From NCBI GenBank assembly GCA_012840385.1, contig DULK01000063.1, forward strand, positions 1 through 60,901: a stretch of 60,901 bases of DNA. The letters run 5' to 3'. The notes under the pieces were generated by a model that saw only the letters and a program-made list of their open reading frames with translations, had not been told where the DNA came from and did no database searches. Origin of the DNA: Syntrophomonadaceae bacterium. GTDB taxonomy: Bacteria > Bacillota > DSM-12270 > Thermacetogeniales > Thermacetogeniaceae. This document shows positions 27,354-50,134 of the stretch, in pieces. Made by a program: the position numbers and the translations under genes. Position 1 is the stretch's first letter. Each line of letters begins with the position of its first letter.

Positions 27354-28190
27354 TCATTGAGCGTACGCCAGGATGCGGGCGAGGATTTCCCGGCGCTTCG
27401 CCTCCACACCGTCAAAATCCATCGCTTCGACATAATACCGCTCCATTTCGTCGTGCACCTGTTTGGCCTTCTTGATATGACGCAGGGCTCTGTCCAAACA
27501 CCTGTCGTAAATCTCCCGGGCCCAGGCAAGCTCCTCGGCGTAGTCGTTTAGCTTTCCGGCATCAAGACAGGCATTGGTATCGAATTTCTCACACATTTTC
27601 AGGTTGGGTAAAGACGCCGGTTCAAAAGCAAGTTCGGGAAAGAGATTGATAACCGCCACTCTGCGTTCGGGAAGGACAACCAGATCCACCTGGGCAGGAT
27701 CAAAGGCGCAGTGGTAAACATCTACTTTGAGCCCGGACCGGTAAGCGTACCCGGCAAGCTCGGTAAAGATAAGCTCCTTTCCCGAGCCGGGTTCTCCCTC
27801 AACCATGTAGAGAAACTCTACCTCATCCAGGACGGTCGTCAGGTGATGGACGATCCCGTTGGGGGTGATCGCCGAAGCAAACAGGTGGCGGTCTTTAGGC
27901 TGCCCGCCCCCCCACATAAGTTTCTCCCCGAATACTTTTCTGAAGAGGTCACCGGTTAGATTATTAAAGCGGCTGCAACAAAACGCTTCGCTGCGGTAGC
28001 TTTTTTCCTCTTCGCGCACCATTTTCGCCATGAGCAGGCTGCTGTAGGCAGTCGCAAAATGCCGGCCCACTCTCTCATTAACCGAAATTATGGCCTCTTT
28101 GTGTTTGGAAAGTACGGAAACATCCCAAAACTCCCCCAGATTGACTATTTCATCGACCGCCCCTGGGTTCTGGGGATCGACCACGTGCGG
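27354..28190 (-). pseudogene. PRK06851-type P-loop ATPase, C-terminal part (split by the integrated element)
   Basis: Encodes the last 276 residues of a two-domain P-loop protein, from VVDPQNPGAVDEIVNLGEFWD to the stop, including the second P-loop VEGEPGSGKELIFTE. The open frame runs on upstream to 28316, but residues before about 28190 come from the inserted element. The missing N-terminal 94 residues, with the first P-loop, are at 50793-51074 on the same strand. Joining H94 to V95 gives 370 residues, near the usual length of this family. The two parts share the codons CCG-CAC at the break. The function of the family is unknown; the present fragment is probably not functional. Confidence 0.9.
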
Positions 28191-29781
28191 GGCCGTGTCT
28201 ACCGTAGAAACCATTGCCCTCAACAGCAGTTTCGAGAATGGCTGCGGTTTCGGATATGGTGTCGGGAATTTTGGCTTTGATGTCAATGCGCTTCCCGGCA
28301 ACAGTAATCTCTTCAATCAAGAGATTAACCAGGCGCTTTTTCGCTTCAAGAGAAAGAGTGTCGAGAGCATCTCCGACCTGAGCAGCAAGCTCTTCTAACC
28401 GTTCCAGTTCCCGCGCCGCCAGATCGTGCCGGGAAAGTTCCTTTAAAACCTGCTCCCGGCGGCCCGAGAGGTACTCCCGGCGCTCCTTTATCTCCCTGAG
28501 CCGCTGTTCCATTTCAACTTCGGGTATCAAACCTTTTTGGAACATGGTTGCTACCCGTGACCGTTCTTTGGAGGTTTGAACCAATTCTTTTTCGATGGTG
28601 GCAAGTTCGATTTCCAAAGCTTTGGCGCTCTCGTCAGGGAAAGCGGCATGCAGCTCTGCGCGAAGCCTTTCCGGATTTGTCAGCCAACCTGAGACTCTTT
28701 CCCAAACGATTTCTTCTAATCCCGGAGCATTAAGATATTGGGATTTACAGCGTTCCCGCCCCGGTATGCCGGGTGATTTCGCAGTGCAGACGTAATAAGC
28801 CCTTTTCTTCCCTTTTGACGTAACAAGATTCCCGTGTATAGTCGCGCCGCATTTTCCGCAGCGCATAAGGCCCGAAAGAAGATAAGGGTAAGTGCTGTAG
28901 CTGCGCCAGCGCCTTCGAGAGTTCTCAAAACGCTTTTGGGCTGCATCCCAGGTTTGTTTATCAACAATGGCGGGGACAGAAATCGGGACCCACTCTTCGC
29001 GGGGTCTTTCTTTTCGGTTTACCCTTTCTTCAGGGGGCTTGTATTTATTGAACTTGACGTCCTTAGTATCATAGCGGCGGATATACAGGGTGCCCGCATA
29101 GGCGCTGTTGGCTAAAATACGTTTGACCGTTTGTTTGGCCCATTGTTTGCCTTTGGGACTGGGGATGCCCATGGCATTTAATCGCCGCGCTATTTCATAC
29201 GGGCTGACGTCTTCCTCGGAAACGAACCATTGATACATAAGCCGGATGATTTTAGCCTCTTCTTCGATAATGTGCAGGGTATCTGTTTCTTTATCAAATT
29301 TATAGCCGTAAAGTCCAGGGCTGTGAGTAAGTTTCCCCGCCTTTGCCTTTGCCCGCTTGCCGATAAGGGAGCGGAGCCTGGTCCTGGCCCGTTCATACTC
29401 GTCAACGGCGCTAAGTACGGTTAAGTGAAAGCGGTCTTCAGGGGTGTCGGCAAACCTGGAGTTGACAAAAATCAACTCCGCTCCCACTTTTTTAATCTCG
29501 TCAATCAGCAAAAGCTGATGGGCCACGCTGCGCGACAGACGGCTGGTATCTAAACAAACAAACCAGCGGATGCCGCCGGCTTTCAGCTTTTCCAGCGCCG
29601 CCACGAGGGCGGGGCGCTCCAGGATGGAGCCGGAGACCCCTTCGTCCACGAACTCCAGTATTTCATTCGCGCCCAGATCCCGGGCTCTAGTCCTGCATTC
29701 CTCCCTCTGGGCTGCAATGGAATAGCCGCGTTCGGCCTGTTCCTCGGTGGACACCCGTAAATATATCAGCGCAGCGCTCAC
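28150..29781 (-). CDS. Large serine recombinase (integrase)
   Basis: A site-specific integrase of 543 residues. The N-terminal resolvase domain has the nucleophile Ser11 in IYLRVSTEEQAERG and LDTSRLSRS and EYERARTRLRS. A recombinase domain follows (about 150-280, SPYEIARRLNAMGIPSPKGKQWAKQTVKRIL). The zinc ribbon is RCGKCGATIHG...YYVCTAKSPGIPGRERC, then a coiled coil (about 400-480). It starts at GTG 29781, overlapping the stop of a small gene by four bases. The last 12 codons (about GRSPEPRGGR, with the stop) are read from host DNA beyond attL, so the tail differs from that in a circular form. It probably catalysed insertion into the PRK06851-type gene. Confidence 0.95.
   Translation of the reverse strand: MSAALIYLRVSTEEQAERGYSIAAQREECRTRARDLGANEILEFVDEGVSGSILERPALVAALEKLKAGGIRWFVCLDTSRLSRSVAHQLLLIDEIKKVGAELIFVNSRFADTPEDRFHLTVLSAVDEYERARTRLRSLIGKRAKAKAGKLTHSPGLYGYKFDKETDTLHIIEEEAKIIRLMYQWFVSEEDVSPYEIARRLNAMGIPSPKGKQWAKQTVKRILANSAYAGTLYIRRYDTKDVKFNKYKPPEERVNRKERPREEWVPISVPAIVDKQTWDAAQKRFENSRRRWRSYSTYPYLLSGLMRCGKCGATIHGNLVTSKGKKRAYYVCTAKSPGIPGRERCKSQYLNAPGLEEIVWERVSGWLTNPERLRAELHAAFPDESAKALEIELATIEKELVQTSKERSRVATMFQKGLIPEVEMEQRLREIKERREYLSGRREQVLKELSRHDLAARELERLEELAAQVGDALDTLSLEAKKRLVNLLIEEITVAGKRIDIKAKIPDTISETAAILETAVEGNGFYGRHGPARGRSPEPRGGR
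28185..28210. other. attL: left junction of the integrated element
   Basis: Host-derived sequence meets the element at GTGCGG (28185-28190). The element arm GGCCGTGTCTACCGTAGAAA (28191-28210) follows and is an imperfect inverted repeat of the arm at 50771-50790. Confidence 0.8.
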
Positions 29782-32235: not shown

Positions 32236-35200
32236 GTTCAGATTCCTCTATGGTCGATCCCAACACCCCTGCACAAGCTCCCCGGGGCCGTTGCCATTAT
32301 TCAGATTCCTCTATGGTCGATCCCAACCCGGCCGTAGGTAATTGCGCTGCCTATTCCCTGCGGCGATTCAGATTCCTCTATGGTCGATCCCAACTAATTG
32401 CAGTAAAATCTTCAGAAGAAGCAGGGGGATTCAGATTCCTCTATGGTCGATCCCAACTCCCACTGAGCTATGCGCCCATCCGCCTGGAATAGATTCAGAT
32501 TCCTCTATGGTCGATCCCAACGCTCATCGTTACCGTCAATAAGCCGGACTATTACATAATTCAGATTCCTCTATGGTCGATCCCAACCTATATTAAATCA
32601 CAAAAAAAAGGGGAGATAACTAAATTCAGATTCCTCTATGGTCGATCCCAACGTGTCCATCCCGGCGAACATAATAGAAGGGATCTTCACGTTTCAGATT
32701 CCTCTATGGTCGATCCCAACGGCTCCAGTACAGATCCATCCACCACAACGGCCCTCATTCAGATTCCTCTATGGTCGATCCCAACTTTTATGAAAAATTT
32801 TCGCTCTCGTAAGTATTACGTATTCAGATTCCTCTATGGTCGATCCCAACTTAGACGTAGCCATAAAATCAAAAGACCCTGCAAGATTCAGATTCCTCTA
32901 TGGTCGATCCCAACCGCCTCAACTGAATTTGAGTTTTTTTAAGAGACCGATTCAGATTCCTCTATGGTCGATCCCAACTGAAGTAAAAGGTAAACTGGGA
33001 GCTAGATTAAGTAAAAGATTCAGATTCCTCTATGGTCGATCCCAACATTAGCACCTTGGAGACATCGATATATCCTGCTTATAATTCAGATTCCTCTATG
33101 GTCGATCCCAACGCGTTTTGCTTCGCAAAAGCGCGGGTGACCGTCTCTTGATTCAGATTCCTCTATGGTCGATCCCAACACCCCCCGTGCAATCTCATCA
33201 GATGTGAATCTTGACCTGATTCAGATTCCTCTATGGTCGATCCCAACAATTATTTTTAAAATATTTGTCAAATTCCTTCACTCATTCAGATTCCTCTATG
33301 GTCGATCCCAACTTGCTACTCCCGAATGCGGGACTACTTACCGTTATATTCAGATTCCTCTATGGTCGATCCCAACAAACGAATCGGCGAATTAAAAATG
33401 TTCGCCATGCGGAAATTCAGATTCCTCTATGGTCGATCCCAACTCACGATGTCTTCCCGCTTGATGACCCCACCCCCGATTCAGATTCCTCTATGGTCGA
33501 TCCCAACCTTCCGGCATAACTACAGGTGCATTTGATTTATTTTATTCAGATTCCTCTATGGTCGATCCCAACGGAAGCATGTGAAAAAATCAGTTATTAC
33601 AAAAAATATATTCAGATTCCTCTATGGTCGATCCCAACTGTTTTATTAAATCTCGGTATTGATCGCTCAGGAGTTCCATTCAGATTCCTCTATGGTCGAT
33701 CCCAACTTTGAAACCGTAATTGTAAGACTTTTCTTATCCTGATTCAGATTCCTCTATGGTCGATCCCAACAATTCTAATTCATCGAAATTACATAAATTA
33801 ATTCTTATTCAGATTCCTCTATGGTCGATCCCAACATTTGCGGATAAGCCTTGATTCGGAAAATGAGATATATTCAGATTCCTCTATGGTCGATCCCAAC
33901 CGGTCTAAGGGAGGGGTGAGCAGCAAGGTTGAACGGGATTCAGATTCCTCTATGGTCGATCCCAACTGCCATGCGAGCGGAACGCCCTTCTTTTTTAAAC
34001 AGATTCAGATTCCTCTATGGTCGATCCCAACGCGGTGTTTTGGAAGCGACCGCAGTATAAGTTGTTAATTCAGATTCCTCTATGGTCGATCCCAACAGCT
34101 TCTCAACGGAATAAGCATAAGCATCATATGCTCATTCAGATTCCTCTATGGTCGATCCCAACAGTGATCGGAGAAAGCGTTCAATTCTTGGATAGAGTAT
34201 TCAGATTCCTCTATGGTCGATCCCAACGTTGTCGAAGTGGGTTTTTCCACGAATGATTTTAGTATTCAGATTCCTCTATGGTCGATCCCAACCTTATTCT
34301 TACGATTCGTGACTCTAACGGGGCTTTGTATTCAGATTCCTCTATGGTCGATCCCAACAGAAATTGCCCGGGAGGCAAACAAAGAGGCCATTGATGATTC
34401 AGATTCCTCTATGGTCGATCCCAACCCGACTGTGATCGACGTTCTCAGGCCAAATATGCGCGCCATTCAGATTCCTCTATGGTCGATCCCAACCCCACTG
34501 ATAGTCACCTCCGCGGCAGTTCTGCAACCACATTCAGATTCCTCTATGGTCGATCCCAACTGCCAGGAAAAAAGCACGATTCAGAAATGCTAGCACATTC
34601 AGATTCCTCTATGGTCGATCCCAACAAAATCCTCTTTGCTATTTTGCTTTTTATTTCTTTTTATTCAGATTCCTCTATGGTCGATCCCAACTAGACTCAC
34701 AGGTAGTCGAACAAAAAACGTCGTTCATTCAGATTCCTCTATGGTCGATCCCAACGGGAAACGAGAGGGCAGCGGGAGAGGAACAGTTAAATTCAGATTC
34801 CTCTATGGTCGATCCCAACGGGAAGCGCAAGCAAAAGTTGCTAGTTTAGGAACGCAGATTCAGATTCCTCTATGGTCGATCCCAACTACTGCGACAACTA
34901 ACAGGAAGTAACGACATAAATGTAATTCAGATTCCTCTATGGTCGATCCCAACCGCGTGTTTTGCATGTCCCAACCAGCTCTGCACCGATTCAGATTCCT
35001 CTATGGTCGATCCCAACTAATTGACTAGTCAGGTTTCCTATCGGCAACCCCCTATTCAGATTCCTCTATGGTCGATCCCAACTCATTCTGTAACTGAATC
35101 AGCTCGCTTTCCAGATTGTATTCAGATTCCTCTATGGTCGATCCCAACTGGTGAGCGTAACTGAAGCGATGCTCAGAAAGAAACATTCAGATTCCTCTAT

Positions 35201-38200
35201 GGTCGATCCCAACTTCATCTATGGCAAATCGAAGACCCACGGAAAAGGCATTCAGATTCCTCTATGGTCGATCCCAACTGTAAGAATAAAGGTTTAGGAC
35301 TTATAGAATACAAATAATTCAGATTCCTCTATGGTCGATCCCAACACAAGGATGGAGCGGGTACTTTTGGATGGATTAAAGAATTCAGATTCCTCTATGG
35401 TCGATCCCAACTTCTTTCGTTTATATTCTTTTTCGTTCTCTTCCCACATTCAGATTCCTCTATGGTCGATCCCAACGGGAGCAGGAGAAGTTCTCTAGTC
35501 CTCATCCTCCCTTATTCAGATTCCTCTATGGTCGATCCCAACGTAAATTGAGATTGCCGTCGAAGGCCAGCAGGTACGATTCAGATTCCTCTATGGTCGA
35601 TCCCAACTTACTTGAAGCAGTCCATTTGTAAGGCCACTATAACATTCAGATTCCTCTATGGTCGATCCCAACGCAGCTATATATACTTTGTCACCCTTTC
35701 GAAGAAAATTCAGATTCCTCTATGGTCGATCCCAACGGTACTTAAACCGGCAATTCGGGCCAGATATTGTGCTGATTCAGATTCCTCTATGGTCGATCCC
35801 AACGTGACCGGAAAACCGCATAACAATGCGGGTTGCGGGGATAATTCAGATTCCTCTATGGTCGATCCCAACTCATCGGTTGCCCGGTATGCGTCCAAAA
35901 CGTGCCGAAATTCAGATTCCTCTATGGTCGATCCCAACTCGATATTGTGAAAGGCACGGGCAGCTTTGTGATGAATTCAGATTCCTCTATGGTCGATCCC
36001 AACAAGAATCCCTTTCGGGCTTTTGTCATAGCCAAAGGGATTCAGATTCCTCTATGGTCGATCCCAACTAGCTTATGGGCGATGACATTCCCGGAAATGA
36101 TCAGTATTCAGATTCCTCTATGGTCGATCCCAACGCTTAAATGGTGCGATGTTTACTTCGGAAACGGGCAAGATTCAGATTCCTCTATGGTCGATCCCAA
36201 CTACATAAGCATCAACCTTACCACTTCTAACACTACCATTCAGATTCCTCTATGGTCGATCCCAACTTAGCAGTTTAAAAGGCAATTTAATCCCCCTTTT
36301 TATATTCAGATTCCTCTATGGTCGATCCCAACAACAATATTGCCTGCCCTGTTTGCTTGGCCCGGTAGGATTCAGATTCCTCTATGGTCGATCCCAACTT
36401 CTAGTTGTTGCTTTATCAGGGAGAAAAACCAGCCTGATTCAGATTCCTCTATGGTCGATCCCAACAGGGAGCAGGAGAAGTTCTCTAGTCCTCATCCTCC
36501 CTTATTCAGATTCCTCTATGGTCGATCCCAACACAATAACGTGGGCGGAATAGCTTACAGGCTCAAAAAGATTCAGATTCCTCTATGGTCGATCCCAACA
36601 GGAAACAGATAAATACTTGGGGTTTATTTAGAGGAATTCAGATTCCTCTATGGTCGATCCCAACGAGGCAGGGTTTCAACAGGAACCGAAAAACGGCGAC
36701 ATTCAGATTCCTCTATGGTCGATCCCAACTTATTATCAGGCGATATGGCCCCTCGGACGCAAAAGATTCAGATTCCTCTATGGTCGATCCCAACGAAATT
36801 CTAAACAAAATACGAGGATATTTTTTAGGCAATTCAGATTCCTCTATGGTCGATCCCAACTTGAAGAGAAAAAAATAGAGCATTTTATATGCTCTAAATG
36901 ATTCAGATTCCTCTATGGTCGATCCCAACCTTTTTGTCGAGGGCAAGGAAAGGAGAAATCATAGATTCAGATTCCTCTATGGTCGATCCCAACGGCCGGT
37001 CGGCAATTCGTTCACCGCTTACGATTTCCATTCAGATTCCTCTATGGTCGATCCCAACCGGAATCTCTTAGAAGAGTTCGGGCCTTCTTTATTATTCAGA
37101 TTCCTCTATGGTCGATCCCAACTGCGCGGCCTATAATCAATACCACTGCCGGCTTTAATTCAGATTCCTCTATGGTCGATCCCAACGGGTATTTTTAAAC
37201 CCAGTTCGTAACGGAAATAATACCATTCAGATTCCTCTATGGTCGATCCCAACCTAGTCTCAGGAATTCAGTGTGATTGATGCTTATGTGCAATTCAGAT
37301 TCCTCTATGGTCGATCCCAACTTCGGATTAAAAAGGGAGCCGTGTCTGGCAAGTCTATTCAGATTCCTCTATGGTCGATCCCAACTCCCGGAACCGTTTT
37401 TGATATTTTGACAGTTTACCGCCATTCAGATTCCTCTATGGTCGATCCCAACATTGGAGTGATTTGCGTGGCTAAGAGAGGTTCGCCAGAGATTCAGATT
37501 CCTCTATGGTCGATCCCAACTACGAAGGAAACGCTGGAAGGAACGAAAACCAGGCTATTCAGATTCCTCTATGGTCGATCCCAACAACTCAACTGCTCGA
37601 TTGGATAGGTTCATGTATTCCATTCAGATTCCTCTATGGTCGATCCCAACAACTACCTAAAGCAATACAATCCGACATCAAAAAATAATTCAGATTCCTC
37701 TATGGTCGATCCCAACCGCAGCTTGAACAGGCCCGGATTTCTCCGGTGTTTGATTCAGATTCCTCTATGGTCGATCCCAACACAAGTGATAAAATTTAAT
37801 TATAAGGAGGACTAGCTAATTCAGATTCCTCTATGGTCGATCCCAACAACTAACTAAAAGGGGGAAGTAAAAATGTTAAAAGAATTCAGATTCCTCTATG
37901 GTCGATCCCAACCTGTACTCTTTTTCTTTTCAACATCAAATCACCCCCTACATTCAGATTCCTCTATGGTCGATCCCAACGTGGATGTGGCCAGGTTCGG
38001 TGACAATGAAACAGTCCATTCAGATTCCTCTATGGTCGATCCCAACAAGAGCGAGAGCAGAAGAGAAAAATACGAGATCAGGATTCAGATTCCTCTATGG
38101 TCGATCCCAACCAGTCAAAGGACTATGAGGCCTATGAGCGGGCCTGCTTAATTCAGATTCCTCTATGGTCGATCCCAACGAGAGTTATATGATGCCATCT

Positions 38201-41069
38201 ACCGGGGCGAAAACTATATTCAGATTCCTCTATGGTCGATCCCAACTCCCAGCGGTATGCCGATATTGCCAGGAACAGCGGATTCAGATTCCTCTATGGT
38301 CGATCCCAACAGAGCTTCCAGGAGCGGGTGTGCAGGTGAGATGAATATTCAGATTCCTCTATGGTCGATCCCAACTCACAGAGTCTCCGTGTTCGGTTCC
38401 ATGAAAATGCTCATTCAGATTCCTCTATGGTCGATCCCAACATTTTGTTTATTACTTTTCGTGACACATTTTTTCTTATTCAGATTCCTCTATGGTCGAT
38501 CCCAACCAGAGTTGGCGATGTGCCGGTGAGGAGAAGGGTATAAAATTCAGATTCCTCTATGGTCGATCCCAACGGTTCCAGAACGCGCCGACGTTCTTCC
38601 CTTATACGCATTCAGATTCCTCTATGGTCGATCCCAACTTTGCCTGTAAGGGATGCCGGGCTGACAAGTATCTTGGGATTCAGATTCCTCTATGGTCGAT
38701 CCCAACCTATCGTGAATTGCCTTCATAAAAGCGGCTTTAATATATTCAGATTCCTCTATGGTCGATCCCAACGATTTCCGGGGGCGCAGGGCGGTATTCG
38801 GGCCAATCGAGATTCAGATTCCTCTATGGTCGATCCCAACCGATGAAAAAGAGAGATCGGACTTTGAGCAGATCAATTCAGATTCCTCTATGGTCGATCC
38901 CAACTATTACAGCGAGCCTGGCGAGGGAACTGTCGGCGACGCCATTCAGATTCCTCTATGGTCGATCCCAACTGAAAATTTGACTCTAACAACTCCCGAA
39001 CCTTTGATTATTCAGATTCCTCTATGGTCGATCCCAACGTATGGATACCTGACAGACCTTACCCATATGCTAGCATTCAGATTCCTCTATGGTCGATCCC
39101 AACTCGGGCGACTGATCCGGACAAAGGCGGACCGGGGGATCGATTCAGATTCCTCTATGGTCGATCCCAACTCAAGGAACTGCGGGAACTGGCGGAGAAG
39201 GCAACGAATTCAGATTCCTCTATGGTCGATCCCAACTGCTTAGAAGTGAAGTCGGGCAACTTGAAGCCACGAATTCAGATTCCTCTATGGTCGATCCCAA
39301 CTTGTCCCGAAGCCATCGGAGCACATAGAGTTGGTCGCATTCAGATTCCTCTATGGTCGATCCCAACAGGAACTGGGTTTCAAATTTATTGAGTATGAAT
39401 CTATTCAGATTCCTCTATGGTCGATCCCAACGGGAGCACAGCTTACTTTTACCCGAATAGGAGTAGGAGAATTCAGATTCCTCTATGGTCGATCCCAACT
39501 GTCCTTCAAAATGCTTTTGAGGTATGTGCTAAAAGCATTCAGATTCCTCTATGGTCGATCCCAACAACGTTGCAAAAGAACGCGAGGCCGTTAAACGAAG
39601 ATTCAGATTCCTCTATGGTCGATCCCAACTCCAAAGAGAGATTGCAAAGCGTGAAGGGATTTCAAATTCAGATTCCTCTATGGTCGATCCCAACGTAAAT
39701 GTGGATAAGGTAAAATCCTACAACGTCGAAATTCAGATTCCTCTATGGTCGATCCCAACGCTAAAGCCTATCCGATTGAACAAATTTATGACATTATTCA
39801 GATTCCTCTATGGTCGATCCCAACCAAATTCACTACTTTTGATGAGGCAGCCGCGGCAAATTCAGATTCCTCTATGGTCGATCCCAACTCTTTAGGGAAT
39901 CCGCCGATACACCCGTGGGCAGAAGACATTCAGATTCCTCTATGTTCGATCCCAACACGGCTGGCGCAATACACAGGGAAGAAGCTCACAGATTCAGATT
40001 CCTCTATGGTCGATCCCAACCTCCACGCCTGCTTGTAGAAGAGGGCGGCAAACTAATTCAGATTCCTCTATGGTCGATCCCAACTTGCCCGGATGCTGAA
40101 GGCGAAGAAGCCGGATCTGCGCCATTCAGATTCCTCTATGGTCGATCCCAACCACAGACCAGCAAGTGGCTGCAAGGGTCATGAACGCATTCAGATTCCT
40201 CTATGGTCGATCCCAACGCTATGCGCAAGGCCGATGAGCAGCAGTTGAGGTTGATTCAGATTCCTCTATGGTCGATCCCAACTCCACAATTTCAGAAACA
40301 CCGCCAGGAGAGTTTTGCAATTCAGATTCCTCTATGGTCGATCCCAACTGATCCTGAAAGCTACTTTGCGGCACACGGCAAGAGCAATTCAGATTCCTCT
40401 ATGGTCGATCCCAACCTTTTTCGGCAGGAAGCACATTCTGCTCTTTTCGTTGATTCAGATTCCTCTATGGTCGATCCCAACACACGCCGAGGCCTGCCGG
40501 TTTTTGAAATGCTCACCCATTCAGATTCCTCTATGGTCGATCCCAACTCAACCCTAAAGACCTTCAACTTGATAAAATTCCTGCATTCAGATTCCTCTAT
40601 GGTCGATCCCAACTTTTCACCTCCCTTTTTATCTTAATCAAATCTTATAATTCAGATTCCTCTATGGTCGATCCCAACTGTGCGACGCCACCGGAGCCGT
40701 CTTGTACGGGTTGATTCAGATTCCTCTATGGTCGATCCCAACATAACTTAATCACGCCAGATCAGCCCTTAGATCTCCATTCAGATTCCTCTATGGTCGA
40801 TCCCAACAATGTGCAAATCCTGTTTCCAAAAGCATGCCCAGTCTATTCAGATTCCTCTATGGTCGATCCCAACATAACAGAACTCAGACCGACCGGGACA
40901 GGTGAATAAAGATTCAGATTCCTCTATGGTCGATCCCAACATGTATGTGTTTCAGGCGGTGCCGACAGTACGGCGAATTCAGATTCCTCTATGGTCGATC
41001 CCAACAATTAATGCGAATCAGTTTGTGAATATGCCGTTATATTCAGATTCCTCTATGGTCGATCCCAAC
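32236..41069 (-). CRISPR. CRISPR array, 135 repeats (manual count), type I-B
   Basis: The 29-base repeat is ATTCAGATTCCTCTATGG followed by TCGATCCCAAC as printed. On the minus strand it begins GTTGGGATCG and ends ATCTGAAT, the likely crRNA 5' handle. I count 135 repeats and 134 spacers of about 35-39 bases (mean period 65.7). The cas operon and leader lie at the high-coordinate side, so the newest spacers should be near 41 kb. Repeats are almost invariant: the first (32236) begins with G, the one at 32692 begins with T, and that at 39928 has T for G at base 17. Spacers 35477-35513 and 36466-36503 are the same sequence, differing by one end base. Confidence 0.98.
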
Positions 41070-41167
41070 AGCAAACGAAACGGCCTGGTTATCCCGTTTT
41101 TAACAGGTATCTTTATCAATTTTGCGTCAAACCGCCGGCTGTGCAGAAACCATTTCAGATAAACATT
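41070..41167 (-). promoter_or_regulatory. CRISPR leader
   Basis: About 98 non-coding bases between the cas2 stop and the first repeat in transcript order. A TTGACG is visible but no well-spaced -10 box. The position next to cas2 and at the newest end of the array defines it as the leader. Confidence 0.65.
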
Positions 41168-41449
41168 TCAGAGAAAATTGTCAGTCGGGTCTGGTGTGTT
41201 TGTGATGATATGCCGGTTAATTTTCACCCCCTCAGCCAGTGTATAGATCACCACAAAATCGCGATCGATGTCCAACACTCTATTGAGCTCCTTTTTTAAC
41301 AAAGCGATCTTCCCTTCTGTGAGATCCCCCTCGAAAACAGATTTCTGGACATGGATCAGGTACTTCCGGCAGGTCTTTAAGGTTTTTACCAATCTTTTGC
41401 GTCCCTGTGCATCTTCAGTATTTATGTCATAGACCAGGATGACGTGCAT
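41168..41449 (-). CDS. cas2: CRISPR adaptation endonuclease Cas2
   Basis: A 93-residue ferredoxin-fold protein starting MHVILVYDINTEDAQGRKRLVKTLKTCRKYLIHVQKSVFEGDLT, with the conserved Asp in VYDIN. It forms the integration complex with Cas1. It starts one base after the cas1 stop and is the last gene before the leader. Confidence 0.96.
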   Translation of the reverse strand: MHVILVYDINTEDAQGRKRLVKTLKTCRKYLIHVQKSVFEGDLTEGKIALLKKELNRVLDIDRDFVVIYTLAEGVKINRHIITNTPDPTDNFL

Positions 41450-41450
41450 T

Positions 41451-42419
41451 TCACCACCAGACTTTCATGGGAACAAACGAGTCTTCTCCCAACAGGTGCT
41501 TTATCAGCTTATACAGGTCAAGCCTGATCAGGCTCTTGTACTTCACCTTTCGCCTGAGCTTGCGGTGGACGATGGTGTTTTCCAGCAATTGCTCGAATTC
41601 CTGGACAAAGATCTTTCTCCCCCCTTCTGTGAGATAACAACAATTTAAATTCTGATCAAAGTGGCCTTCATTCAGGGACCCCTGGTTGACCAGCCGAAAG
41701 ATCAGCCTGTCCACAAGAACCGGCTTGAAAATCTCTGAAACGTCTAATGCCAGCGAATATCTGCGTTCTGACGGCTCGTGGAGGTAGCTGATCACGGGGC
41801 TCAGGGCTGTGCGCCGGATCTCTTTGAGAACCGTGGTATAGAGCATTGAATTACCAAAAGAGATCAAGGCATTCAGGGCGTTGGCAGGAGGCCTCTTTGA
41901 ACGCTCTCCAAACTCCCACCCGGTGATCTCTTCCCATTTGGAATAATAAAGCTTGCGGACATGAGCCTCGACGCTCATCAGGTCGCTGATCTCCCCGGCT
42001 TCTTTTGCCGCCTCCCGGTACTCGTCCAGCCTCTGACACGCCTCATCCTCACCGCGCTTCTCCAGATTGCGCCTGATGTTGTGCATCGCCCCCTCGATAA
42101 AGCTGCGCGCCAAAACGATCCTTTTCTCCGCGTCCAGATAGTGCTCTACCTGCCTCACCAGGAGAACACCTGAATTGATCCCCTCCCGCGGCAAAAAAGT
42201 CCCGGTATAATTCCCATAGTAATCAAAGAAATGGATGCTAATCCCGTGCTGCCCCAGGAAATCCAGCAGCTTGCTGTTGAGATCGAGCTCACCAAAGCAG
42301 TAGATGTGGTCGATGTCCTCAACCGGGAGATACCTGCGGGAATCCGCAGTCTCAAAAGCCAGAGTGTTATCCTTGCGGCGAAGGCAGCCCGAGGAAAAAA
42401 GGTAATATGTGCGGCTCAT
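41451..42419 (-). CDS. cas1: CRISPR integrase Cas1 (type I-B)
   Basis: The integrase that inserts new spacers, about 322 residues. ATG 42419 follows GGAGGG by five bases and gives MSRTYYLFSSGCLRRKDNTLAFE; the longer frame from 42491 overlaps cas4. The metal ligands fit the Cas1 pattern: Glu in LMSVEAHVRKLYY, His in SPVISYLHEPSERRYSLALDVSEIFKP, and the Asp/Glu that follow it. It lies between cas4 and cas2, the usual I-B adaptation order. Confidence 0.95.
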   Translation of the reverse strand: MSRTYYLFSSGCLRRKDNTLAFETADSRRYLPVEDIDHIYCFGELDLNSKLLDFLGQHGISIHFFDYYGNYTGTFLPREGINSGVLLVRQVEHYLDAEKRIVLARSFIEGAMHNIRRNLEKRGEDEACQRLDEYREAAKEAGEISDLMSVEAHVRKLYYSKWEEITGWEFGERSKRPPANALNALISFGNSMLYTTVLKEIRRTALSPVISYLHEPSERRYSLALDVSEIFKPVLVDRLIFRLVNQGSLNEGHFDQNLNCCYLTEGGRKIFVQEFEQLLENTIVHRKLRRKVKYKSLIRLDLYKLIKHLLGEDSFVPMKVWW

Positions 42420-42432
42420 ATAGACCCTCCAC

Positions 42433-42954
42433 TTAGACGGCGCAAAAGTCCCAATAAGCACACTGCAGGCAGAATTTTCTCTTTTTCGCAAGAGGCGGGA
42501 TCTGCCGGTTTAATATCTCCCTGATCTCGCTTACCGCCCTTTCGATCGCTTCTTCATCCTCAGCAGTCATCTCCACCTCGACCTTTCTCATGCTGGCCGG
42601 ATAGTGAAGGATCCCCCTCCGGCAGTTAACACCCTTTTGTTTCAAAACGAAGATGTAATACTTCAGCTGCCAGAGATGGGCATCTTCGAACTTCCGGCTC
42701 TTCTTCATCTCGTGAACGACAACCTCATCCCCATACTTCAGAAAATCGATCTTGATGCTGTCTATCTGTCTCTCACGCTCGTGCTCGCGGGGAAACCTCG
42801 TCTCATGAAGGATTTTCCCTTTAATGACGTTGGCATTTCCTGTAACGTTTTCAAAATCAAGCCCCTTGGCATGCAGCCACAGCTTCCGCTGGCAGATGAA
42901 GTAGTATGAGACCAGCACCCCGGTGATGCCAATCTCCTCTGTTCCCAGCTCCAT
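42433..42954 (-). CDS. cas4: CRISPR adaptation nuclease Cas4
   Basis: A RecB-like nuclease with an Fe-S cluster, which trims prespacers and selects the PAM. The 173 residues have one N-terminal cluster Cys (YYFICQRKLWLH) and three at the C terminus (FCLQCAYWDFCAV). The nuclease core includes IKGKILHETRF, the acidic IDSIKIDFLK and VVHEMKKSRKFEDAHLWQLKYYIFVL. The start abuts the cas3 stop. Confidence 0.95.
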   Translation of the reverse strand: MELGTEEIGITGVLVSYYFICQRKLWLHAKGLDFENVTGNANVIKGKILHETRFPREHERERQIDSIKIDFLKYGDEVVVHEMKKSRKFEDAHLWQLKYYIFVLKQKGVNCRRGILHYPASMRKVEVEMTAEDEEAIERAVSEIREILNRQIPPLAKKRKFCLQCAYWDFCAV

Positions 42955-45726
42955 TCACTCATTCTCCTTTCCCAGCAACCCTCTCTCACTGTCGTAATCA
43001 AGGTCGGCCAGGTTAATACCTGAAAGCCACCTCTCCAGCTGAGAGCGCCGGCGCTCCAGGAGATCAGAGTCCAGGCCATCAACCCTCGAGAGCACATCAC
43101 CAACCTCTATTTCCCTCATCACATCCTTCACCAGGTACCAGGGGGCACTGACAACAAACCTGCTTACGGCTCCTTCTGCAATATCGTCATAAGAGAGCCT
43201 GCTGCCTCTTTCAGCTATGCATCTGGCCACGGCGTCATAGAACTCTTCTTCCAGGCAGGATGGTACGATGCTGCAGTCGCACATCTGCCTGAAGAGGCGT
43301 TGGGCATCGCTCCTCCTGTCAGAGCAGTAACCGTGATCCAGGATATCCAGGGTCTCCTCGTAGATCCTCACATATGAGCCGATCCCTGTGGGGTTTTTCT
43401 CCAGCAGCTTATAGGTGACATCTACCCAGATCTGTTTCTGGCGCTCCGTCAGGGCAAGAGTTGAAACACCTGCATCCGCCAGCCTTTCAACCAGGCGGCC
43501 GGCAAGATCCCTGGCCGTCGTTTTTTTCTTCTTCTTTTGACCTTCCTGCTTCAGATCAGCAACCAACTGCCACACACGGTTCTCTATCTCTACCTCCTGA
43601 TCAGCCGCCGAAATAGAGCCTTCAGACTGCATCTCCATCATCACCGCTAAGACGGCCAGTGACAGCAGGGTAAACTCAAAGTCATAGACGTGCCTGCTCT
43701 CGGGAGAAGTCACTTTCCCCACGCCTGAACCCAAAAGCACGCCATTCCCGCCCCCCTCAGCGGGGGACTGTACCAGGATAACCACATTGGCCTCTTCCCC
43801 GGGAGCCCATCTCCCCTCCTTCAGGGCATAGCGCCTGTAGACCCGTCCCATCCTCTGGACCAAGCTGTCAACTGGAGCTGCTTCTGTGAAGAGGATGTCT
43901 GCGTCGAGGTCGAGCGAGGCCTCCACTATCTGAGTGGCCACCACGACGCATCCGCCTGGAGGACGATCTCCGATGTTCGGCATCAGTCTAAACACGCTGT
44001 CTTCCTTCTTCCGCCGGTGCTCCATCGTAAAGCGGGAATGCAGCAGGACAGGCTCGACCTCTGCCTTCGTCTCCTCCAACTTCTTGAGCAGCCCTTCGTA
44101 GACCTCTCTGGCCGCCTTTACCGTATTCATCACAACCAAAACCTTCTTCCCCTTACGGGCTTCCCCGATCAGCTGCTCCGCAAGCCGGAAAGAGTCGCCA
44201 TCCCACTTCTCCAGCTTCACGCTGTGCCTGCTCGAGGCCGCCAGAGGCCTCAATTCTTCCACCTCTTCCAGCAGATTGAGCGTTTCGACCCCTGTCCGCT
44301 TTTCCAGCTGGGTTCTCACAAAGCCAGGCAGAGTAGCCGTCATCAGGAGAACGCTCCCGCCTATTTCCGTGACCTGCTGGACGAGGTGGGTGACGATGGC
44401 GGCTGCCCGGGGGTCATACGCCTGGACCTCATCGATCGCCACGCACGCCCCCATCAGTGCGGCGTAAATGCGCTCGAAGCCGGGATAGCGGAGCGCTGCA
44501 GGGACTATCTGGTCAGCAGTGCAGACTATATACGGGTGGCCGAGGTGCCGCGCCAACTCCACCGCCTGTCTGCTCTCCCCTTCGATCTCGTCCTCGCCTA
44601 GAAGCGGTCGCTCCTCCGGCGGCTCTTTCTCGCCTTCTTCCAGCCTCTTGAGCCTGCGGAGCGCCAAAGCTGCATCGCCGTGGAGCAGGGCTGCGTTCTT
44701 TCCCCACTCTCTTCTGATGCTGCCGAGCAGACTGCTGATGCGCTCATACATGGAGTTGGCTGCAACACGCAGGGGAAGCACGAAGAAGAGCTTCCTGCCT
44801 CCTCCCCAGAGGCTGGCAAACTCAGTTTTTCCCACGCCGGTAGGAGCGATCACGACAACGCTCCTGCCTCTGATATCAGGCATTTTTCCCAACAGGTGAG
44901 CCTGCCAGAGCCGGTTGAACCTCTTCTCCAGCGCAGCCTTGAGCTCTTCATATGATGCCACTTCCCCCATCTCGATCTGGGATGCCTGAACAAACTGGTT
45001 CTGATCCATGTAAGAGGCAAAGTGATCGGCTCTCATCAGATTTCCGGCAACAAAAATCCGCATCTCCTCATCAGAATCAGTGGCCTTCATCCTCTCAGAG
45101 AGGAAGATCATGCTGTAGGGGGGTGTGATGAGGCCTGATGCCCCGAGGTCGTTATACATCAGGTATTCCACGACATCCTCGTTGAAACCGACAGCTTCGA
45201 GGCTCAAGCCGTGCTCCTCGGCCAACTGTCTAAGCCCCTCTTTCAGCTCCATGAGCATACCTTCGTAACAGCCCCGGCATTCGGCCAACATCTTCGCCCG
45301 CTCTTTGAGACACTCGCTCAATGCGCCCAAAAGGTAGTCAGGAAAGTTCTCTCTCCAGTGGTGAAACGCCACCGCAGAGAGAACGGCATCCTTCAGGTCG
45401 TCTCCCAAAGGGAGAAATCCGGCGCCGATGAAAAACAGGGCAAACAGGCTGTGGGGAAGCGGGGATTCAGCCAGGCACTTCCTGCACTTCTTCTCGTCTG
45501 GGAGAATTTCCTTCCGTCCGCTCCGCCCTCCTCCCCGCAGCCGCGTCTGAAAAACGGGGTCGAGCTTGCCCAGGTCGTGGAGCAGCCCGGCATAGCGCAG
45601 GGCCTGCCACCAGGCGTCTGGCACACCACCACAAACACCGGAGGCTTCCAGAGCCCTGATGCACTCCAAGACCTTCTCCGTGTGCTCAGCAAGAGTGGAG
45701 CCGCTGCTCTTGGCCAGAACCTCCAT
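42955..45726 (-). CDS. cas3: CRISPR helicase-nuclease Cas3 (HD N-terminal)
   Basis: Degrades DNA marked by Cascade. The 923 residues have an HD nuclease domain (His15, H50-D51 in GLLHDLGKLDP, FHHW at about 121-124), then the SF2 helicase: Walker A APTGVGKT (about 294-301), DEVQ (432-435), motif III LMTATLP and motif VI region SLVQRMGRVYRR. The start overlaps the cas5 end by 41 bases after GGAGGGAGAAG. All expected motifs are intact, so interference should work. Confidence 0.96.
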   Translation of the reverse strand: MEVLAKSSGSTLAEHTEKVLECIRALEASGVCGGVPDAWWQALRYAGLLHDLGKLDPVFQTRLRGGGRSGRKEILPDEKKCRKCLAESPLPHSLFALFFIGAGFLPLGDDLKDAVLSAVAFHHWRENFPDYLLGALSECLKERAKMLAECRGCYEGMLMELKEGLRQLAEEHGLSLEAVGFNEDVVEYLMYNDLGASGLITPPYSMIFLSERMKATDSDEEMRIFVAGNLMRADHFASYMDQNQFVQASQIEMGEVASYEELKAALEKRFNRLWQAHLLGKMPDIRGRSVVVIAPTGVGKTEFASLWGGGRKLFFVLPLRVAANSMYERISSLLGSIRREWGKNAALLHGDAALALRRLKRLEEGEKEPPEERPLLGEDEIEGESRQAVELARHLGHPYIVCTADQIVPAALRYPGFERIYAALMGACVAIDEVQAYDPRAAAIVTHLVQQVTEIGGSVLLMTATLPGFVRTQLEKRTGVETLNLLEEVEELRPLAASSRHSVKLEKWDGDSFRLAEQLIGEARKGKKVLVVMNTVKAAREVYEGLLKKLEETKAEVEPVLLHSRFTMEHRRKKEDSVFRLMPNIGDRPPGGCVVVATQIVEASLDLDADILFTEAAPVDSLVQRMGRVYRRYALKEGRWAPGEEANVVILVQSPAEGGGNGVLLGSGVGKVTSPESRHVYDFEFTLLSLAVLAVMMEMQSEGSISAADQEVEIENRVWQLVADLKQEGQKKKKKTTARDLAGRLVERLADAGVSTLALTERQKQIWVDVTYKLLEKNPTGIGSYVRIYEETLDILDHGYCSDRRSDAQRLFRQMCDCSIVPSCLEEEFYDAVARCIAERGSRLSYDDIAEGAVSRFVVSAPWYLVKDVMREIEVGDVLSRVDGLDSDLLERRRSQLERWLSGINLADLDYDSERGLLGKENE

Positions 45727-46588
45727 CTTCTCCCTCCTCTCTGAGGCGTGAGGCGTCTATCCTGGCAAAAAATACTGGAAGCCCTTTTTCCGTGTCGAAA
45801 TAAAGCCTGGGGTATCTCCCCGGCGCCAGCCAGGGGATGTTCCCATCAAAAAGCCGCACCGGGATGTACTCGAAGTTCCGGCAACCCCCATCATCTCTTC
45901 GGGGGTAAACCGAAGCGATGAGATTCGCGCTCCCGGTCACCCGCCTGTAAACCTCATCGTAATCATCGGATCCCCTCTCCTGAGGCCTGTAAACGAAAAC
46001 GCCAGCCCTTTTGCCCGGATCGGGCATCCACTGCCTGTAGGCGGACGCATTCCTGTAGTCGCCAGGCCGGGAACCGGGCCTGATCTCTGCATCAGCGATC
46101 TCTTCCAGAACAGCCCAGTCCTCCGACCTTCCCAAATGGAGGTGGGAGATCCAGCGCTCAGGGCAAAAAGCATTTTCTTTAAGTCTGGCGTTAACTTCGC
46201 GATCAGGGTGGGCGAGATAAATCAAAACCTCCACATCGTTGAGCACAAAAAATGTCACCGGCTGCTGCCCTCCCGGGTGCTCCGGCGCATCCTGGTACAC
46301 TCTGTTCCCGAACGCGCCGAAGCGCTCCTCGTGGCTGCTGCTGCTCAGGTTTCGCAGCCAGGTGTATTCCTGAGTGACCGTTCCTGCCCGGCAGAGAACG
46401 CCGAGGCCGAAAGGCGCAGCGAGCATCCGCTCGATCTTCTCCCGGCTTCCGAGGATATTCGCCAGAAAGCCAATCACGGTCGAATAAGGCGGCACCAGGT
46501 ACGTATGGCGCGGGTTGCTCGTCTGGGGCACGCGAAAGTGAGCGCTGGGAGCCGTCACCCTTATCCTAAGCGCTGTAAACGCTCCCAT
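45686..46588 (-). CDS. cas5: Cascade subunit Cas5 (type I-B, Cas5t-like)
   Basis: Caps the crRNA 5' handle in Cascade. It is 300 residues long, with the family N terminus TALRIRVTAPSAHFRVPQTSNPRHTYLVPPYSTVIGFLANILG. The start overlaps the cas7 stop by one base. The tail (EEGEDGGSGQEQRLHSC) is low-complexity because it is read through the cas3 start. Confidence 0.92.
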   Translation of the reverse strand: MGAFTALRIRVTAPSAHFRVPQTSNPRHTYLVPPYSTVIGFLANILGSREKIERMLAAPFGLGVLCRAGTVTQEYTWLRNLSSSSHEERFGAFGNRVYQDAPEHPGGQQPVTFFVLNDVEVLIYLAHPDREVNARLKENAFCPERWISHLHLGRSEDWAVLEEIADAEIRPGSRPGDYRNASAYRQWMPDPGKRAGVFVYRPQERGSDDYDEVYRRVTGSANLIASVYPRRDDGGCRNFEYIPVRLFDGNIPWLAPGRYPRLYFDTEKGLPVFFARIDASRLREEGEDGGSGQEQRLHSC

Positions 46589-47733
46589 CAGGCACCAGCC
46601 TCTCCAGCACCGGTACCCTCTTCAGCCGGGTAAACAAAATCTACAATCCTGCCGGCATCGATCCCTCTGATGAAATCATCTTCTTTTAGCTCCTCTGACA
46701 GCGGCAGCAGCGACTTGTACCAGGCCCTGATGATGTGGCTGTTCTTCCGTGTTTCTGTGAGCAAATCTGCACTGATCTTGCCGTCTGAAAAGCTGATCGC
46801 AGAGTGGAAGAGCGGAACCGGCGCCTTGAGAGCAGCCATCACGCAAAAGAGAGGGTTCGTGCCATAGCTCTCCGTGCTCGAATGGAGGGAAAAGCCGTCA
46901 GCTATCACGGTGAGGACCTGCTTCAGTCTCTTCCTGTACTCATCATCAGCGACGACAAACAGCAGCCAGCCTCCCTCATCCTTCGAACTCTTTACACCGA
47001 CATAGCCAGGAGTGCTGTCCACCCTGCTTTCTGCGCTCGAGGCAGAGGAACCGTCACCCTGGCTCGATGGAATGGCATACCACTCCCATCCATCCTCTAC
47101 ATCCAGCCTTTTGACCCTTTCCCGGACATCATCCGCAGAAGCCTTTGCCAGGCCGCTCAGCCAATCCCTGATCTTCGGCTCAGTGACTTCCGCAGCTACC
47201 TCCTGCTGACCGAAACGGCTGAGATCAAGGGTAAAGGTGAGCCTGTAGAGAGAGTAGTGCTCTTCCTTGGAAAAGGGGTTGGGGTTGGCCTTTGTACCGC
47301 ACTTCACTGCCCTTGCCACCAGATCGTGGTTGGCGTAAAAGGCCATATCGCCCTGCCAGGGCTCCAGAGAGATCGCCTTCGTGATCCCAAGCGGGGCCTT
47401 CCGGGTGACCGTGAAGGGGTTTGTCCGCATGAAGCCGAACAAATCGAGCTCAGGAAAGTTGACGATATTCGCATCCGGAAAACCAAACTGCAAGACGGTG
47501 TTGTCCTTAACCACCGGTGCCGGCTGCCATCCATAAAGGCCGTGCAGCGCCACAAACAGGTGGTGGCGGATAAAGGCGCGGCTCATAAAGGAATAAGTGC
47601 CGTCACGGCGCGCCAGCTTCTTGATCGACTGAATGCTCTCGGCGATCTTCTCATCACGGTTTACAGCGGAACTTTCAAAAACAACGGTTGCGGTTACGCC
47701 CGCTGCCTTAAATTTATCCCTGTTCACCAACAT
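46588..47733 (-). CDS. cas7: Cascade backbone Cas7 (Cst2/DevR-like)
   Basis: The RAMP protein that polymerises along crRNA. The 381 residues contain TVVFESSAVNRDE, DGTYSFMSRAFIRHHLF and FDLFGFMRT-like (LDLFGFMRTNPFTVTRKAPLGITKAISLEPW), typical of the Cst2/DevR family of the I-B (Tneap) group. It lies 23 bases after cas8. Confidence 0.93.
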   Translation of the reverse strand: MLVNRDKFKAAGVTATVVFESSAVNRDEKIAESIQSIKKLARRDGTYSFMSRAFIRHHLFVALHGLYGWQPAPVVKDNTVLQFGFPDANIVNFPELDLFGFMRTNPFTVTRKAPLGITKAISLEPWQGDMAFYANHDLVARAVKCGTKANPNPFSKEEHYSLYRLTFTLDLSRFGQQEVAAEVTEPKIRDWLSGLAKASADDVRERVKRLDVEDGWEWYAIPSSQGDGSSASSAESRVDSTPGYVGVKSSKDEGGWLLFVVADDEYRKRLKQVLTVIADGFSLHSSTESYGTNPLFCVMAALKAPVPLFHSAISFSDGKISADLLTETRKNSHIIRAWYKSLLPLSEELKEDDFIRGIDAGRIVDFVYPAEEGTGAGEAGA

Positions 47734-47756: not shown

Positions 47757-49385
47757 TTATTCTCCTGACTGGTCAGAGGCACCGCCGGCAGTCACTCCTG
47801 CAATGTAGGCAAATACCCCTGTCCTGAAAAGCGAATCATCCTTCACTTCAAAGACCCTGCTCAACTCCTCAGGGAAGATCTGGCCGTTGGCGACGTAAGT
47901 CCTGAGAAGGATGTGGTAGACATCGTCCCTGCGTCCGAGCCTGGCGAGCTCAAGGATGCGAAAGACCAGGTTTTTCTTGGAATTTTCCTCAGTGTTGAGC
48001 GGCCCTCTTCTCCCCTCCTCGCGGAGCCTATCCATATTCAGGTATCTCACACTCTCACCACCCTGTCGTTTTATCTCAGCATAAAGCTTCAGCAGATCGA
48101 CTACCTTTCCGCTGTCGGCGAGCACTCCTACCTCCACCCCCTGCCTCCCCCCCATCAAGGAGTAGAGAGAAGTGTAAGCGATATCGAGAAAATCTTCGAT
48201 CCTCTCCGCAAGCAGCAGTCCCCAGATCCTTTCCTCAACTTCCTCCCTTGACGAAAAGCTGCGGAGAAGCGCAGAGGTCCTCGTGTTCAGAAGCCACCTG
48301 GCAACTGTTGCAGAGATGAAATGATATTCGACTTTACCCTTCCTCAGGCTCATCACCTCCAGCCCCGTCAGCGTCCAACCACCGAGCAGCTTCCTGAGCC
48401 TCGAGCTCGCCGCCAAAGCATCCAGGAGGTTGTAAAAGCCGTGGCTTCCGGTCAAACTTGACGAAGACTCCGCCCTGAGCAGGCGGTTGAGGTACCAGTT
48501 GGCCTTAAAAGACCCCGTATTCAGAAAGAAGCCGTAACTGCGGACGATGTGGGAGCAAAGCAGGTACGACCTGCACAGCCTGCACATCGGGAGAGAGGGC
48601 TCCCCGTTCCAGAAAAAGTTCGGGAGTTTGTTAGGTGAAGAGCCCAAGTCGCTTGAGACCGTCCGCAGGAAATAAAACTCGTAAACCCTGGGGTGTTGAT
48701 CGCCGGGGTCGAGGGAAAATCTCTTCCCGCAGAAAGCACACGTCAGATCCCCGCCCTCCTCTTCCAGAGCAAACCACTTTTCTAACACGCCTTTCAAAGT
48801 CTCGTAGCTGTCTGAAGTCGCAAGATTCTCATAATCACCGCCCTTCCTCAGCCTCTTCCTGGCAGCAACCGTCAGCCTTACCTTTGCAGCCAGATCCGGA
48901 GAAACTCCCGGAAGTTCTCCCCTCGCAGCAGAGGCAAGAAGCGCCTTTACCAGGCTGGCAGCCACCTTCTTCGCTATCCCAGTGCTCTTGATGAACTCCT
49001 CAGCCAGTTTGCCTTCTCCTTTACCACCCACGTACACCTCAAGCAGATCAGCCAGGAGTTCTTGCGGATAATCCCCAAGCTGCTCCTCAACACTGGTCTC
49101 AGGCTGAAGGGAAAAGGTCTTCCCTGCCCACCAGGAAACAATCCGTTTAATACCATCCGCGGGTTCATCCCTGCTGGGGTAGCCCGGCGGCAGGGGTCTC
49201 TCAGCGCTGCTGAAAACCGCCTCAGCGAGGTCTCCCGGGATCACCGCTGAGCCGTCATCCCTCAGAAAAGACTCGATCGTCTCCTTCCCCAGGCCCCACT
49301 CCAGCACCTCGAGGAAACCCTGGACGCAGGCGTTGAAGTACCAGTCCGCCGGATAAATTTCCAGATCATCCAAACCGCAGTTCAC
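47757..49385 (-). CDS. cas8b: Cascade large subunit Cas8 (Cst1-like, type I-B)
   Basis: The PAM-recognising large subunit, 542 residues. A central zinc-finger-like pair, CAFCGKRF (about 216-219) and MCRLCRSY (about 267-270), is typical of Cst1/Cas8. Otherwise it is assigned by its place between cas6 and cas7. GTG 49385 lies right against a GGGGG site; TTG 49373, six bases beyond it, is a plausible true start (LDDLEIYPADWYFNACVQGFLEVLE). Confidence 0.88.
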   Translation of the reverse strand: MNCGLDDLEIYPADWYFNACVQGFLEVLEWGLGKETIESFLRDDGSAVIPGDLAEAVFSSAERPLPPGYPSRDEPADGIKRIVSWWAGKTFSLQPETSVEEQLGDYPQELLADLLEVYVGGKGEGKLAEEFIKSTGIAKKVAASLVKALLASAARGELPGVSPDLAAKVRLTVAARKRLRKGGDYENLATSDSYETLKGVLEKWFALEEEGGDLTCAFCGKRFSLDPGDQHPRVYEFYFLRTVSSDLGSSPNKLPNFFWNGEPSLPMCRLCRSYLLCSHIVRSYGFFLNTGSFKANWYLNRLLRAESSSSLTGSHGFYNLLDALAASSRLRKLLGGWTLTGLEVMSLRKGKVEYHFISATVARWLLNTRTSALLRSFSSREEVEERIWGLLLAERIEDFLDIAYTSLYSLMGGRQGVEVGVLADSGKVVDLLKLYAEIKRQGGESVRYLNMDRLREEGRRGPLNTEENSKKNLVFRILELARLGRRDDVYHILLRTYVANGQIFPEELSRVFEVKDDSLFRTGVFAYIAGVTAGGASDQSGE

Positions 49386-49408: not shown

Positions 49409-50134
49409 TTACAGCCGTTCCAGCATTCCAAACCCCTGCCCTGTTCTCACCCCAATCCCAAAATCATAGAGGAACTGGAGAGAAGCAGGAGACCCTTGCA
49501 AGGTCATCCTCCCCTGAACAGTTGTAATCATCCCCCCATAATGGGCGCAAACCCCTTTCCGGTACGAGGACAACTCCGGAACAACAGCTACAGGAGAAAC
49601 CGCACCAGGAGGGACATAAATTGAGCTTAAGAATTCCAGCCGTTTAAACAGGTGTGTGTTGATCGCCTCCTCGATCTCCGCAGGAGTAGACGCCGAAGGG
49701 TCAAGGTATCCCTCTTTCCCCCTCAACACCGCATGGCCCTTGATCTTGAACACCGCCATCTCGTCCGTCAAACGGGTCAAAGGAGGCACAGAAAAGGCAT
49801 CTACCTCCAGCCCCAAAACCACAGGTTTTCCGTAAAGCCTCAAGACGCCGTTGGCAATAGCTGTCATCACGGAAGGGATCCCTGTAGAGATCTCCATTAG
49901 CACGGGTGGAAGGACCGTGAACCTCTGCTCCTCTTTGTCCCAATCGACAAGGCGCTTGAAGCTCACCGAAAAAACATATGGGCTGAAACCTGGCTGCTCT
50001 ACACTGAACCGCTCCGCCACCTCTGTCCCGTCAAGCACTTGCTTCAGCAGAGAGATAAAGTAACGCCTGAAATCACAGGGTATAGCGATCCTCTCTTCAC
50101 CGTTTGCCGGGAGCAAATTAACCCTCAACCGCAC
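49409..50134 (-). CDS. cas6: crRNA-processing endoribonuclease Cas6
   Basis: Cuts the array transcript within repeats. The 241 residues have the RAMP fold and end in the glycine-rich GIGVRTGQGFGMLERL. GTG 50134 is the first cas start; no clear promoter was found in the 600 bases upstream. It heads the eight-gene operon that ends with cas2 at the leader. Confidence 0.94.
   Translation of the reverse strand: MRLRVNLLPANGEERIAIPCDFRRYFISLLKQVLDGTEVAERFSVEQPGFSPYVFSVSFKRLVDWDKEEQRFTVLPPVLMEISTGIPSVMTAIANGVLRLYGKPVVLGLEVDAFSVPPLTRLTDEMAVFKIKGHAVLRGKEGYLDPSASTPAEIEEAINTHLFKRLEFLSSIYVPPGAVSPVAVVPELSSYRKGVCAHYGGMITTVQGRMTLQGSPASLQFLYDFGIGVRTGQGFGMLERL

Follow-up and report, generated by a model that had tools for sequence, protein, structure and literature searches.

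Two of the 134 spacers in a type I-B CRISPR array of a Syntrophomonadaceae bacterium are identical over 37 nt and differ by a single base at one end. They are best explained as two independent captures of one protospacer by the type I-B machinery, with variable trimming at the PAM-distal end, a reading held with a probability of roughly 0.9. PAM-anchored capture with variable trimming had been proposed in the original prediction, and it is supported by the crRNA orientation, by the side on which a CCA motif lies at other protospacers, by the lack of a block duplication, and by one-sided raggedness of duplicate spacers in a survey of 90 arrays. Throughout, positions refer to the window, which is the whole 60,901-nt stretch of DNA that was analysed.

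CRISPR array and cas locus

The array (32236..41069, minus strand) was parsed into 135 repeats, each 29 nt long, which separate 134 spacers of 34-40 nt. In crRNA sense the repeat reads GTTGGGATCGACCATAGAGGAATCTGAAT, with three single-base variants, and the exact repeat had no match in other species among GTDB contigs. The cas genes adjoin the high-coordinate end of the array on the minus strand, in the order cas2, cas1, cas4, cas3, cas5, cas7/Cst2, cas8b1/Cst1, and cas6. The cas2 gene (41168..41449, 93 aa) was identified from position and size rather than from a profile match. It is followed by cas1 (41451..42491; type I-B Cas1b, TIGR03641, 467 bits), cas4 (42433..42954; TIGR00372), cas3 (42955..45726; helicase/HD nuclease, TIGR01587 and TIGR01596), cas5b (45686..46588; TIGR01895/TIGR02593), cas7/Cst2 (46588..47733; TIGR02585), cas8b1/Cst1 (47757..49385; TIGR01908), and cas6 (49409..50134; TIGR01877, below the curated cut-off), all on the minus strand. 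With Cas8b1/Cst1, Cas7/Cst2, Cas5b, Cas3, Cas6, Cas1b, Cas4, and Cas2 (the last by position only) the locus belongs to the Cas8b1/Cst1 branch of type I-B. The product of cas4 is presumably the nuclease that processes the PAM end.

The intergenic DNA that separates cas2 from the first repeat (41070..41167, minus strand) probably marks the leader side, judging from its position relative to cas2. Spacer numbering therefore runs from 41040 downwards, with crRNAs on the minus strand, and the repeat end ...GAGGAATCTGAAT agrees with this direction. New spacers would thus enter at the high-coordinate end. Beyond the oldest end of the array, at 27354-29781, lie an ORF of 543 aa that resembles a serine recombinase and, overlapping it, one of 320 aa. 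A further type I-B cas1 is present on another contig of the same genome (C3; L279, 183-2194), along with a second array of about 30 spacers whose 30-nt repeat is different.

Spacers 70 and 85

Counted from the leader, the older copy is spacer 85 (35477..35513, minus strand), which is 37 nt long and reads AAGGGAGGATGAGGACTAGAGAACTTCTCCTGCTCCC in crRNA sense. The younger copy is spacer 70 (36466..36503, minus strand), 38 nt long, which reads AAGGGAGGATGAGGACTAGAGAACTTCTCCTGCTCCC plus a 3' T (the plus-strand A at 36466). Both sets of coordinates and lengths, and the single extra base away from the crRNA 5' side, are as originally predicted. Fourteen other spacers separate the two, which puts them 15 positions apart, and the neighbour pairs 69/84 and 71/86 are unrelated in sequence, which agrees with the earlier view that a block duplication is unlikely. 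Among the 8,911 spacer pairs of the array, compared on both strands, the longest word common to any other pair is 13 nt, and in shuffled spacers it is 11 nt; the match between spacers 70 and 85 is therefore far beyond chance. A search of the organism's own genome (2.70 Mb, up to 3 mismatches) found AAGGGAGGATGAGGACTAGAGAACTTCTCCTGCTCCC at these two sites only, with no third copy. Folding of the shared sequence into a hairpin was unremarkable (z -1.5).

The difference between the copies sits exactly at the PAM-distal spacer-repeat junction, while the common 37 nt and the repeats are unchanged. At this position the array base adjoining spacer 85 is the G of the repeat, and spacer 70 has T. The extra T does not match that G, so spacer 70 was not taken out of the array together with its flank, and the T needs an outside template.

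PAM and the shared spacer end

The array was compared with the organism's own genome, with relatives, and with viral contigs in a search for the PAM. Protospacers with a good match were found for nine distinct spacers (14, 42, 54, 60, 61, 69, 91, 92, and 93). At the best protospacer of eight of them (all except spacer 42), CCA immediately precedes the spacer's first base on the 5' side, for which the chance probability is about 3e-14. The ninth, spacer 42, has GCC/A, a register shifted by one base. At some protospacer sites in more diverged relatives CCG, CTA, CAA or GAA takes the place of CCA. The spacers with located protospacers are 35-38 nt long and CCA nevertheless keeps its place at the spacer start, so the length variation is PAM-distal. 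By the same token, the CCA found 5' of the spacer start at eight other spacers identifies the common end of spacers 70 and 85 as the PAM-proximal one. The cas-gene orientation also enters into this assignment, which had been expected from the start.

The protospacers come from several sources: those of spacers 42 and 69 from the organism's own contig C63, those of 91-93 from a relative's prophage and viral contigs, those of 54, 60, and 61 from one contig of another relative, and that of 14 from a further contig. Spacer 42 (38311-38346) is self-targeting, with a 36/36 match to C63, which is prophage-like (L020:6667); the one-base slip in register, giving GCC and not CCA, may explain why self-targeting is tolerated. 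Spacer 69 (36533-36570), which lies beside spacer 70, matches the same contig (L020:9050) at a site that has 4 mismatches and CCA as its PAM. Spacers 60 and 61 (37059-37157) and 54 (37521-37556) match the same strand of a terminase-portal region on one contig of a related genome (L022), a pattern that would follow if one element had supplied runs of spacers. The consecutive spacers 91, 92, and 93 (34954-35119) all match the same strand of one phage or prophage reverse-transcriptase gene (L021:9948-11105; L137-L143). This gene comes after a variable-looking protein of the formylglycine type, an arrangement that resembles a diversity-generating retroelement; there are viral contigs up to 98% identical in the formylglycine-type protein.

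Search for the protospacer of spacers 70 and 85

The original prediction had looked to the protospacer and its PAM for confirmation. The PAM was obtained, as CCA from the eight other spacers, but the protospacer of spacers 70 and 85 was absent from the collections searched. It was found neither in the organism's own genome nor in its family (19 relatives, up to 3 mismatches), in collections that represent each species by one genome and the genus by two other species, and 398 genomes drawn from the phylum (about 380 besides the relatives) gave no match. GTDB contigs contained no exact 22-mer. Searches of IMG/VR with an exact 20-mer, a PAM-plus-seed 18-mer, a 3' 18-mer, and two degenerate codon patterns did not recover it, and it was absent from phages and plasmids (BLASTN) and from whole records of related viruses. 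Five 18-mer matches covered the seed only or the 3' half only and were attributed to chance, and two codon-pattern candidates did not match in sequence. With no protospacer located in these collections, re-acquisition is a deduction and not a direct observation. The protospacer is predicted to carry CCA at its AAGGG end and a T (position 38) after ...CTGCTCCC.

Duplicate spacers in other arrays

The survey of duplicate spacers drew on 100 regions from the phylum, each lying downstream of a type I-B cas1 gene. These yielded 90 parsed arrays and a total of 5,674 spacers; array L298, with a badly fitted repeat, was left out. Array direction was taken from the cas1 strand, independently of the spacers. 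For each of the other arrays the PAM side was likewise deduced from the cas1 strand and the repeat end, and not from protospacers of its own.

Identical pairs comprised 83 in blocks, 32 in tandem, and 37 isolated ones. Exact pairs of unequal length numbered 16 (15 isolated and 1 tandem, with 70/85 included). In all 16 the 5' (PAM-side) end is common and the distal end differs, and none shares the 3' end only. Raggedness was seen in 0/83 block pairs and 1/33 tandem pairs. It occurs in 15/52 isolated pairs vs 1/116 block or tandem pairs (Fisher p 6e-8), with the caveat that pairs within an array are not fully independent: L291 alone contributes 5 of the 16, belonging to three spacer families, and L278, L317, and L331 contribute two each. 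The 15 ragged isolated pairs are spread over 9 arrays. Diverged pairs of unequal length were 5'-anchored in 6/6 cases, one of them a homopolymer slip inside a block. The pair 19/22 of L257 was rejected as a ragged end; it reflects a homopolymer slip inside a block duplication. In two pairs, L315 (124/139) and L294 (89/157), the whole spacer is shifted by one base, apparently through a slip of the PAM-side cut, and in one further pair one spacer is contained in the other with both ends extended. Slipped PAM-side cuts would be expected to give shifted and contained pairs of this kind.

Alternative explanations

Recombination was the outcome named beforehand as contradicting two captures. Spacer 85 would have been copied to position 70 either by gene conversion through the repeats on its two sides or by a block duplication with subsequent deletions, and a one-base insertion would have come later. 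Such duplicates are common in comparable arrays, as the block and tandem pairs of the survey show, and duplications dominate among duplicate spacers in a published reconstruction (PMC11472070). The 37 isolated pairs of equal length also mean that some isolated duplicates may arise by recombination. However, spacers 70 and 85 have neither the co-duplicated neighbours nor the equal-length copies of a recombinational duplication: their flanking spacers differ on both sides, and the inserted base would have had to land, by coincidence, precisely at the PAM-distal junction while the other 37 bases stayed unchanged. The lack of raggedness in block pairs, and its single occurrence in tandem, also argue against this route, which is unlikely.

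An assembly artefact in a repetitive array is a concern in a draft genome of 105 contigs. The two copies, however, share at most 66-67 bases (repeat plus 37-nt spacer) before they diverge at T/G, a length that ordinary read lengths should resolve, and each copy has unique neighbours; an artefact is very improbable. Self-capture, in which Cas1-Cas2 took spacer 85 from array DNA and re-inserted it, can be dismissed almost entirely: work cited in PMC8406132 describes active CRISPR loci of other systems as hot spots for acquisition, but the base beside spacer 85 is the repeat G and not T, and the repeat end before it is GAAT and not CCA.

Proposed double capture of one protospacer

On the favoured reading, a single Cas1-Cas2-Cas4 type I-B machinery would have taken the protospacer twice, at different times, from the same or related foreign elements. 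The cut on the PAM side would have been fixed next to the 5'-CCA, and the far cut set by an imprecise ruler (34-40 nt), leaving the later capture one base longer. Each insertion would have taken place at the leader end, with spacer 70 following spacer 85 after 14 intervening ones. The parts given to Cas4 and Cas1-Cas2 in the two cuts follow from general knowledge of these families.

The lengths of two random captures in this array differ 78% of the time, and by exactly one base 35% of the time. CCA provides about 1,250 sites per 40-kb element. In a rough model in which the 134 spacers come from 5-20 element types, about 0.4-1.4 same-site pairs are expected among the 8,911. The one pair found is about what unbiased capture predicts, and therefore no hot site is needed, although the figure is compatible with one.

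Spacers 70 and 85 are a clean natural example of an ordinary, known process. Their interest lies in the unequal PAM-distal ends, by which a true re-acquisition can be told from a recombinational copy on the sequence alone. A wider reading is tentative and rather doubtful: holding a spacer would not prevent its recapture, certain PAM sites would be preferentially recaptured (as hot sites, or through interference-driven capture from the cut site), and the history of repeated exposure to one element could be read from the ragged duplicates.

Comparison with known systems

In Sulfolobus (Erdmann & Garrett 2012, PMC3468723), near-identical spacers with homogeneous CCN-PAM ends and heterogeneous leader-distal ends were described. 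Their lengths vary by several bases. An imprecise ruler measured from the PAM was inferred there, and overlapping spacers are rare within natural Sulfolobus loci (PMC3468723). As in the present pair, the PAM-side end is fixed and the far end variable, but the Sulfolobus spacers were gathered from many cells in an infected culture, whereas here a single natural bacterial array contains both captures.

In Clostridioides difficile, also type I-B, new spacers are 34-40 bp long (36-37 on average) with a CCN PAM 5' of the protospacer (PMC8406132). The length range is the same as in this array and CCA fits CCN, although those data were obtained by experimental overexpression of cas1-2-4 in another lineage.

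SpacerPlacer classed 8/805 duplication candidates as reacquisitions (PMC11472070), cases in which, as proposed here, the same spacer was inserted again later. With 15 isolated ragged pairs in 9 arrays, re-acquisition may be commoner than this tree-based figure. The present pair differs from those cases in that ragged PAM-distal ends serve as a direct mark of re-acquisition.
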